A stretch of 64,000 nt of DNA from Anaerocolumna chitinilytica (GTDB lineage Bacteria; Bacillota; Clostridia; Lachnospirales; Lachnospiraceae), in contig NZ_AP023368.1 of the NCBI RefSeq assembly GCF_014218355.1, positions 3,786,001 to 3,850,000 of the forward strand. The letters are read 5' to 3'. Position numbers and translations under genes: made by a program. The stretch's first letter is position 1, and each line of letters begins with the position of its first letter. This document shows, piece by piece, positions 30,813 to 33,148 of the stretch. Below the pieces are notes generated by a model. The model was not told the origin of the DNA. It was given only the letters and a program-made list of their open reading frames with translations, and searched no databases.

Positions 30813-31226
30813 TTAACCTTTTGTATGTTTATTTCCTAATTCTGTTTCAAGCCTAATAATCTTTTTCTGGTTCTCATTAAGCTCTTCTTTCAAGGCAGCT
30901 ATGGTTTTTTCCGCCTCATTTAACTTAGTAGTAAGAGATACCAGTTCATGCTTTAATTCAAATATTTCTTTGGCTTTTTCTTCATTTTCCAGTTCGATTT
31001 CTTTAACCTGCTCCCGAACCTTAAAAAAGTCATCTGCTATATTAATCTCCATCAAGATGCTTTTCATATCGGAATCAAGCATTTTATAAAAATCCTGCTT
31101 TTTAAATTCACTGTTTTTACTATTTATATAAGATGCCACTCTCTGAAGATACTCTTCGCTCTCATAACCACGCAGTGTATATTTTTTATTATTTATGATG
31201 ACTTCGATATTGTTCATCTTATTCAT
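30813..31226 (-). CDS. zapA: Cell division protein ZapA
   Basis: ZapA binds and bundles FtsZ at the division ring. The N-terminal globular part contains VIINNKKYTLRGYESEEYLQRVASYINSK (split around residues 8-36), typical of the family. The C-terminal two-thirds is a long Glu/Lys/Leu coiled coil (about 60-135). At 137 aa it is a slightly extended clostridial form. A GAGG ribosome site is 7-8 nt before the ATG. In related genomes it directly follows ruvB; here 900 bp with two palindromic elements intervene. Confidence 0.93.
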   Translation of the reverse strand: MNKMNNIEVIINNKKYTLRGYESEEYLQRVASYINSKNSEFKKQDFYKMLDSDMKSILMEINIADDFFKVREQVKEIELENEEKAKEIFELKHELVSLTTKLNEAEKTIAALKEELNENQKKIIRLETELGNKHTKG

Positions 31227-31399: not shown

Positions 31400-31640
31400 G
31401 GCGGACGATGGTTTCTGAGTCCATTCATTCATTTTCTCGTTCTGTGCTGCGAATTCCACTAAAATGCCAGCAGCTATTCCTGGAAGGTAAAATTACACCA
31501 AACTCGCATAAAGGTTATTGGCTATGTGACACTGTGAGCTCAGACATGGTGTGATTTTACCTAGTCATAACTGCTGCCATTTAAGTGTCATACACAGCCC
31601 CTCAATATAAAATGCCTGAATGGACTCAGAAACCATCTGT
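31400..31640 (+). repeat. Large palindromic element, copy A (candidate structured RNA or MITE-like)
   Basis: This 240-bp element folds along almost its whole length. The outer stem is a perfect 21 bp (31407-31427 with 31617-31637). Next come CAGCAGCTAT (31468-31477) with ATAACTGCTG (31567-31576), then a 16-bp inner stem (31485-31500 with 31547-31562). The apical loop contains the palindrome TGAGCTCA. Shared with copy B are GGCGGACGATG at the start, AATTCCACTAAAA, CCAAACTCGC, ACCTAGTC and TTTAAGTGTCAT. Stems differ in sequence between copies but keep pairing. A minus-strand frame of 72 codons crosses it and looks spurious. Confidence 0.8.
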
Positions 31641-31730
31641 TCTTGGCTATAGAATTCTTTTGTGTAAAATAAAGCTGAACTGTTGCTAAATTTTCTAAAT
31701 ACAAAGCATTAAGCCAGTTCAAGCCCCTGT

Positions 31731-31816
31731 ATATCTATATAATCTTTTTACTATATTATCTTTTTATCATATTATCTTTTATCAAATTATCAATTTTTTA
31801 TATCATCAATATAATC
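31731..31816. repeat. AT-rich degenerate tandem repeats between the palindromic elements
   Basis: Units like TATTATCTTTTTATCA recur four to five times with slippage. No gene is visible. The rest of the spacer (31641-31880) is AT-rich and featureless. Confidence 0.5.
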
Positions 31817-31881
31817 AGCTTATCCCATTAACCGTACCCATAGCTCTGTGCAGAAATATGACACTAGTCTTTCAGAAATAC

Positions 31882-32123
31882 CCAGATGATTCTTGTTTAT
31901 ATTTTTCTATGTTCTATTGAAGGGCTTTTAATGACACTTAAACGGCAGCAATTGCGACTAGGTGAAAGGGTACCATTGTGTGAGCTCACAGCCTAATCCA
32001 GCGATAACCTCCAAAGCGAGTTTGGCATCCTTTCACCTGTCAGGAGCAATTGTTGGCGTTTTAGTGGAATTTAAAGTCCTGAACAAGAACATGAAAAAAT
32101 ATAAACCGGAATCATCGTCCGCC
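31882..32123 (-). repeat. Large palindromic element, copy B (inverted relative to copy A)
   Basis: This is the same architecture as copy A but on the opposite strand. The outer stem is about 30 bp (31885-31914 with 32087-32116) with a few mismatches. The inner 16-bp stem is 31960-31975 with 32023-32038. A 12-bp palindrome TGTGAGCTCACA (31979-31990) lies at the apex. The outer stem has a wholly different sequence from A's, yet pairs; the inner stem has paired substitutions. It begins about 14 nt past the ruvB stop, so ruvB transcripts would carry it in this orientation. Confidence 0.8.
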
Positions 32124-32137
32124 CCCAAAGACTTCCG

Positions 32138-33148
32138 TCATACAATACCCTCCGACTTCTCCGCAAGCCCAAAATGCCTGTACCCAAGCCCCGACACCAT
32201 TCGTCCTCTGGGTGTCCGGAGTATCAATCCATTCTGTACAAGATAAGGCTCATACACCTCTTCTATTGTTCCGGGATCTTCACCCAGGGTAGCTGCCACT
32301 GTCTCAATACCTACGGGTCCTCCGTTAAATTTCTCAATCATGGCGAGAATGATTGCCCTGTCCATATTATCAAGGCCAAGCTTGTCTACTTCCAGTAAAT
32401 CCAAAGCAAAGTCGGCTACTTCTTTCGTGATATGTCCGTCATATTTTACCTGGGCAAAATCTCTAACCCTCTTAAGCAGCCGGTTGGCAAGCCTTGGGGT
32501 ACCTCTGGAACGCCTCGCCAGTTCATAGGCTCCTTCACCGTCAATGTCCACTTTTAAGACAACCGCCGAGCGGCATATGATTTCTTTTAATTCCTCATTG
32601 GTGTAAAATTCAAGACGGCTTACAACTCCGAAACGATCTCTTAAAGGAGGTGTTAACATTCCCGCTCTGGTAGTTGCTCCTACCAATGTGAATTTTGGTA
32701 AATCCAAGCGGATTGATTTGGCTGCCGCTCCCTTACCGATGACAATATCTATAGCAAAGTCTTCCATGGCTGGATATAATAGTTCTTCAACCTGACGGTT
32801 CAAGCGGTGGATTTCGTCTACAAAGAGTACATCCCCTTCTTTTAGATTACTTAATATTGCAGCCATTTCTCCGGGCTTTTCTATAGCAGGACCGGAGGTA
32901 ACCTTCATATTTACAGACATTTCATTGGCTATAATGCCGGCCAGTGTTGTCTTTCCAAGGCCGGGAGGTCCATAGAAAAGTACGTGATCCAGAGATTCTC
33001 CTCTTTGTTTTGCCGCTTCTATATAAATCTTGAGATTTGACTTAGCCTTTTCCTGCCCTATGTAATTCTCTAATAGCTGGGGTCTAAGTGTATTCTCTAT
33101 TCGCTTATCTTCATCTGTCAATTCTGTGCTTATAATACGCTTTTCCAT
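32138..33148 (-). CDS. ruvB: Holliday junction branch-migration helicase RuvB
   Basis: RuvB is the hexameric AAA+ motor that pulls DNA through the RuvA-bound junction. [20 protein letters not shown] opens the domain. The Walker A is [13 protein letters not shown] and Walker B is [12 protein letters not shown]. Sensor and winged-helix parts follow, ending near RTPRGRM. The protein is 336 aa, full length. It lies 20 bp after ruvA in the standard pair. Confidence 0.98.

Follow-up and report, generated by a model that had tools for sequence, protein, structure and literature searches.

The two inverted palindromic elements, A and B, that lie between zapA and ruvB of Anaerocolumna chitinilytica are probably (we estimate about 0.58) old copies of a palindromic mobile element, non-autonomous and mobilised in trans, that is recognised as folded single-stranded DNA. 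The family to which they belong is multicopy and dispersed, is patchily present among close relatives, and carries a constant apex. Its arms covary almost only by Watson–Crick pairs, and unpaired islands are conserved between the variable helices. In what follows, the window is the whole 64,000-nucleotide stretch of DNA that was analysed, and positions at the locus are those of the window.

Copies A and B

Copy A (31400..31639, plus strand) is a 240-bp palindromic element running from GGCGGACGATG to CATCTG; it is defined by its sequence and fold, by blastn, and by a covariance-model match (G000:C1:3817438-3817597+, 153.9 bits). Copy B (31883..32123, minus strand) is an inverted member of the same family, defined by sequence, fold and a covariance-model match (G000:C1:3817925-3818085-, 154.6 bits). 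The A+T-rich spacer between them (31640..31882) has no internal ORF of 60 or more amino acids. Pfam matches confirm the neighbours named in an earlier, sequence-only reading of this DNA: zapA (30813..31226, minus strand; PF05164) and ruvB (32138..33148, minus strand; PF05496 and PF05491) both lie outside the element, and copy B starts 14 bp past the ruvB stop codon.

That reading had described conserved islands common to A and B, and these are present: GGCGGACGATG at 31400(+) in A and 32113(-) in B, AATTCCACTAAAA at 31452 and 32059, CCAAACTCGC at 31498..31507(+) and 32016..32025(-), TTTAAGTGTCAT at 31580 and 31931, and CATCTG at 31634 and 31883. CCAAACTCGC makes up half of the constant motif at the apex. 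In the pairing map of A, the left arm of the outer stem (31407..31427, plus strand) forms 21 perfect pairs with the right arm (31617..31637, plus strand), as had been claimed; the outer stem of B is indeed longer, but it is slightly interrupted. The 16-bp inner stems are complementary to 94% in A and 88% in B. Both copies fold far better than shuffled sequences: measured against dinucleotide shuffles, the z-scores as RNA are -9.9 (A) and -7.6 (B) on the strand first described, and -10.7 (A) and -9.6 (B) on the opposite strand. Folding as DNA gives z-scores of -7.9 to -10.1.

Family size and spread

Further copies were found by blastn and by covariance model, both here and in other members of the genus, and the family proposed from A and B is therefore real. 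A blastn search with A revealed dispersed copies within the same genome. The covariance model, for which 39 core sequences from three species were used, gave 62 matches in this genome, which reduce to at least 34 distinct copies once 28 overlapping opposite-strand matches (one of them overlapping only partly) are dropped; this count is a lower bound, 150 of 1342 candidates having been scored. The model matches 8 of the 15 genus members, this genome included, and none of the other 7, with 1 to 74 matches per element-bearing member when both strands are counted. Under stricter filters it matches 12 of 397 sampled Lachnospiraceae genomes, again including this one. In a species-level genome collection, which may omit near relatives of the window's genome, the exact core pattern occurs in two other species, an Anaerocolumna MAG and Clostridium sp. 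KNHs205.

The length of the element is nearly constant, 238-247 bases in 20 of 21 copies and 217 in the remaining one, although the outer stems of these 21 copies are often unrelated in sequence. The copies end in GGACGATG and CATCTG. The distant Lachnospiraceae matches share the apex and some of the islands, and their arm sequences are mostly unrelated yet paired. The family is dispersed and is not tied to ruvB or zapA.

Gene context and retention of copies

The copies are strongly biased in their orientation relative to genes. Of the 54 Anaerocolumna copies with a left neighbour, 45 have the GGACG end toward the start of a gene and 9 toward the end of one; where the genes on both sides are co-directional, the numbers are 29 and 6. 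These counts are based on ORFs of at least 100 amino acids rather than annotated genes, include orthologs, and draw on 31 of the 34 copies of this genome and 24 from two other species. Inverted pairs recur as well, and with the dispersal of copies they support the earlier suggestion of a MITE- or REP-like element. This genome has four such pairs. All nine pairs less than 1 kb apart among the listed Anaerocolumna matches (two of the nine orthologous) have the same arrangement, with the GGACG ends outward, and pairs in three further genomes (G437, G677 and G414) are arranged in the same way by eye.

A role as a bidirectional regulator of ruvB and zapA, which had also been proposed, is unsupported, because copies adjoin many other genes and because, as judged by eye, the element is present in the ruvB-zapA gap of only 4 of 12 genus members with a zapA match; the other 8 have a short, element-free gap. 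A scan of 94 flanking proteins, out of 133 listed ORFs, showed no enriched family or shared function near the copies, and the 25 listed of the 153 families in flanking proteins include no transposase.

The strong bias relative to genes could nevertheless reflect a function. The copies might be DNA cruciforms that serve the host, as insulators or supercoiling sinks, upstream of promoters or after stop codons. The orientation split and the uniform arrangement of close pairs are what such a role would lead one to expect, some sites keep their copy across two or three species, and settled copies are under some constraint. We nonetheless consider a host cruciform unlikely: nearly half of the genus (7 of 15 members) has no match, the neighbouring genes have no common function among the flanking proteins scanned, and orthologous elements change about as fast as the sequence to their left. 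Over nine ortholog comparisons, the identity of the element averages 0.94 and that of the left flank, where present (8 of 9), 0.95.

The constant apex

The GAGCTC sequence that had been taken for a conserved apex is present in just 15 of the 45 core copies. It is thus not a family feature, and the idea that it mediates dimerisation lacks support. The constant apex is instead formed by CCAAACTCGC, found in 44 of the 45 core copies, and GCTCA[AG]ACA, found in 43; on the opposite strand it reads TGTYTGAGC-loop-GCGAGTTTGG or, in shorter form, TGTYTGAGC-loop-GCGAGTT. By hand sums, this pattern has 135 matches in 25 of 299 Bacillota genomes, as against 6 matches in 6 genomes for a reversed control.

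Among 59 distinct apices from outside this genus, 45 are flanked by arms whose complementarity exceeds the 99% shuffle level, and 14 have no complementary arms. Their three-base loops are GNA in 31 of 40 cases and their four-base loops GNNA in all 10, copies from one genome not being independent in any of these counts. In viral contigs, 22 of 42 distinct apices have arms and 39 of 41 three-base loops are GNA, the search pattern itself having fixed a purine and the final A. When a 30-base apex was used as BLAST query, 14 plasmid records and 33 phage records matched, many of them with E at chance level. Arms are present at 3 or 4 of 8 exact plasmid apices, depending on the run (the shuffle threshold differs), and in both runs at those of Ilyobacter, Butyrivibrio and Aureibacter, so the reach of the apex beyond Bacillota rests on few cases. 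A Chlorohelix plasmid match was dropped because it has no true apex. We suggest only tentatively, and at less than even odds, that there is a superfamily extending beyond Bacillota in which a single-stranded DNA fold would be inherited, comprising a TGTYTGAGC-GNA-GCGAGTT cap, unpaired islands and replaceable complementary arms, together with an enzyme that reads shape.

Beside ruvB in G407 and G398 (L135, L136), a second palindrome with unrelated arms, the same apex and a GAA loop occupies the position of B; in G404 (L137) the tip of this second palindrome is missing between inverted repeats. In a group of viral contigs (L249 and relatives), AACTCGCTTCGCTCAAACA lies in frame within a phage-like protein (NSLRSNK), which recalls palindromes inserted in genes. 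Other contigs (L266 and similar ones), inovirus-like by eye, carry the apex after GCGCCAG, and the sequence to the right of the apex varies among relatives, as at an integration end. G614 has 39 apices in all; of the 13 listed, at least 10 are no farther than ~170 bases from where a contig ends, as though hairpins interrupted the assembly.

Covariation and the nature of the fold

The compensatory change inferred from A and B alone is borne out across the family. Each copy has ~80 pairs, and 31 of the 44 core pairs have changed on both sides. The controls for covariation were shuffles and partner columns slid along the alignment: 95.2% of pairing cells are paired, compared with 80.9% in shuffles and 31-39% with partners slid by 1-3 columns, and 272 cells show double changes, compared with 82.6 in shuffles. 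The sequence-only reading had staked the family on the existence of further copies and of covariation, and the outcome was in its favour.

RNA that is selected for pairing is expected to keep GU pairs and to avoid AC pairs. Among 45 copies of the element (mean identity 0.69), there are 29 GU and 28 AC among 1844 pairs on the strand of the first reading, and 53 GU and 30 AC among 2024 pairs on the opposite strand. The large SRP RNA, taken from the best 30 of 37 matching Lachnospiraceae genomes (40 searched) and treated with the same alignment and folding script, has 473 GU and 14 AC among 2365 pairs, at a mean identity (0.76) similar but not equal to that of the element. GU pairs thus make up 1.6-2.6% of pairs in the element and 20% in SRP RNA, and the ratio of GU to AC is near 1-1.8 in the former and 34 in the latter; RNAalifold, which chooses the structure on the given strand, favours GU there for element and SRP RNA alike. 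That GU is rare and hardly favoured in the element points to a DNA fold, and suggests that preservation has acted on folded DNA and not on RNA.

As RNA, the opposite strand has the better fold in 17 of 21 copies, and in A and B it has the better fold as DNA as well; the strand reading TGTYTGAGC...GCGAGTT is thus the candidate for the folded one. A wobble test on crude arm alignments weakly favours the same strand when all loci are used (264 vs 217, p 0.036) and points in the opposite direction for this genome alone (86 vs 104).

The same data bear on the earlier proposal of a structured RNA family, which here would be an sRNA or leader with its fold on the strand directed toward the adjacent gene. 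Strong covariation of helices would be expected of such an RNA. Since 45 of 54 copies have their GGACG end toward the start of a gene, it is usually the strand with the better fold that reads in the direction of this gene, and the 53 GU and 30 AC pairs of the core alignment amount to some wobble preference on this strand. The near absence of wobble pairs, at most 2.6% where SRP RNA has 20%, nevertheless makes an RNA quite improbable, and two further observations argue in the same direction. Seven of the ten four-base loops found outside the genus are GNYA, not GNRA. The 64-kb window has no Rfam match at gathering score, and with E up to 10 a single match, at chance level (E 7.7), overlaps A. 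At gathering score, 20 related loci gave no Rfam match and 7 others gave a tRNA only; below threshold, five matches to microRNA precursors in related loci are of a kind that fits any long hairpin.

Divergence of orthologs and the search for an enzyme

In 13 overlapping comparisons of orthologs, one-sided changes outnumber Watson–Crick double changes by 69 to 13; nine non-overlapping comparisons give 55 and 10. By hand arithmetic, paired bases differ at 4.3% and unpaired bases at 8.5%, and the 13 double changes exceed the number expected from independent mutation. It might be supposed that mutation itself, by template switching or arm conversion in a quasi-palindrome, keeps the arms complementary with no selection on structure; double changes even between close orthologs and the scarcity of wobble intermediates are in keeping with this. 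The prevalence of one-sided changes in orthologs speaks against such upkeep, and copying of one arm onto the other would erase the unpaired islands and the apex, both of which are conserved. We regard this explanation as very unlikely. An ordinary MITE, in which a DDE transposase would recognise long terminal repeats in double-stranded DNA, is hardly credible, since the family is dispersed, non-coding, mostly intergenic and built of inverted repeats as a MITE would be, but has conserved positions at its apex and internal islands as well as at its ends, and stems that covary between copies.

Settled copies look weakly constrained, and divergent copies differ mainly by coordinated changes. From this combination we infer that selection acts mainly on the ability to move. 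Recent movement was not seen: all 10 of the KNHs205 copies tested have a counterpart in G407, for which both flanks were found in 6 cases and just the left flank in 4, and the ortholog comparisons yielded neither a target-site duplication nor a clean filled and empty pair for the family. A different palindromic repeat of ~170-190 bp (AGTACTGCCTTGC ... GCAAGGCAGTACT), with a GCGTAGC motif, is inserted in an element arm in KNHs205 (L048), probably with a short duplication near TAGT. The same site in G407 (L351, the G407:C1:2414211 region) is without this repeat, part of which matches several places in G404.

A search for Y1 transposases (PF01797) gave no match in element-rich G000 (this genome), G404 and G405. 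Element-rich G407 has 4 matches and G398 one weak match, and the element-free genomes G024 and G345 have 17 and 4. Weak, decayed Y1 fragments occur at G398:C3:822824-822946 and G407:C1:4198754-4198930, each with an element a few hundred bases away. The ORFs between the copies at 3171165(+) and 3176584(-), considered as a possible source of a transposase, look by eye like ordinary genes of the chromosome. On plasmid pAT2 of Aureibacter tunicatorum (L310), an apex palindrome has two tyrosine recombinase genes, next to each other, as its immediate neighbours; Cas genes adjoin the apex on the other Aureibacter plasmid, and there is thus no case for a tyrosine recombinase as partner.

Proposed mode of propagation

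The interpretation first given to A and B is partly supported, and the mobile element recognised as folded DNA can be set out as follows. The TGTYTGAGC...GCGAGTT strand would become single-stranded, during replication or by cruciform extrusion, and would fold into a capped, imperfect hairpin. A transposase or recombinase would then recognise the apex, the islands and the geometry of the stem, but not its sequence. Lineages that keep the fold would keep moving, so that stems would drift by coordinated changes between copies, and copies once settled would decay much like their surroundings.

Dispersed palindromes are of a known kind; what is new, in this reading, is covariation at the level of DNA, the mini-hairpin cap and the replaceable arms. 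No description of the element was found, by sequence or by topic, in the open-licence literature of PubMed Central, and one may exist elsewhere. In passages of a survey of stem-loop families that includes two Clostridium species (PMC2267715), nothing of the A/B element was seen. If the proposal is correct, large DNA hairpins form a widespread class whose members inherit pairing rather than sequence, and genomes use the ultrastable GNA mini-hairpin as a cap. The family would also be a clear case in which RNA-style covariation misleads RNA finders, and the comparison of GU with AC against a real RNA would offer a simple test to distinguish DNA-level from RNA-level structure. The apex motif could be used in the hunt for the enzyme.

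Comparison with known systems

Skipping-rope RNA occurs as a long hairpin in bacteria of several phyla. The A/B element shares the long hairpin with this RNA (RF02924), which, as described in PMC7779021, differs in having a pseudoknot; RF02924 was rejected after it gave no match at gathering score in the window or in 27 related loci, and none in 9 loci searched with E up to 1. The apex invites comparison with very stable DNA mini-hairpins, for which the reported rule is a GNA or GNNA loop on at least two G-C pairs (PMC4686876). These are the commonest caps among the short-loop apices outside the genus, but the mini-hairpins of that report were described for synthetic DNA, and the corresponding loop is longer in A, B and most Anaerocolumna copies.

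REP and BIME elements, which are paired with RAYT transposases of the IS200/IS605-like Y1 type, are described as dispersed, extragenic, imperfect palindromes, often in inverted doublets and noncoding (PMC2817692). The A/B family resembles them in these respects and differs in its length, ~240 bp rather than the few tens reported for REP, in its ends, GGACGATG and CATCTG without a GT(A/G)G head, and in arms that differ between copies with compensation. Membership in the REP/RAYT system was rejected on length and ends, and because Y1_Tnp was undetected in this genome.

The end boxes of integron attC sites are RYYYAAC and GTTRRRY; by inspection, these are absent from the ends of A and B. The A/B family is also much longer than attC, and no cassettes or integron integrase were seen. 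What the two have in common is that attC sites, according to PMC2727003, are recognised by structure over sequence with one strand preferred, and that the A/B family conserves structure rather than sequence. The element is most likely a passive one that would be read as a folded single strand, a logic resembling that of attC.
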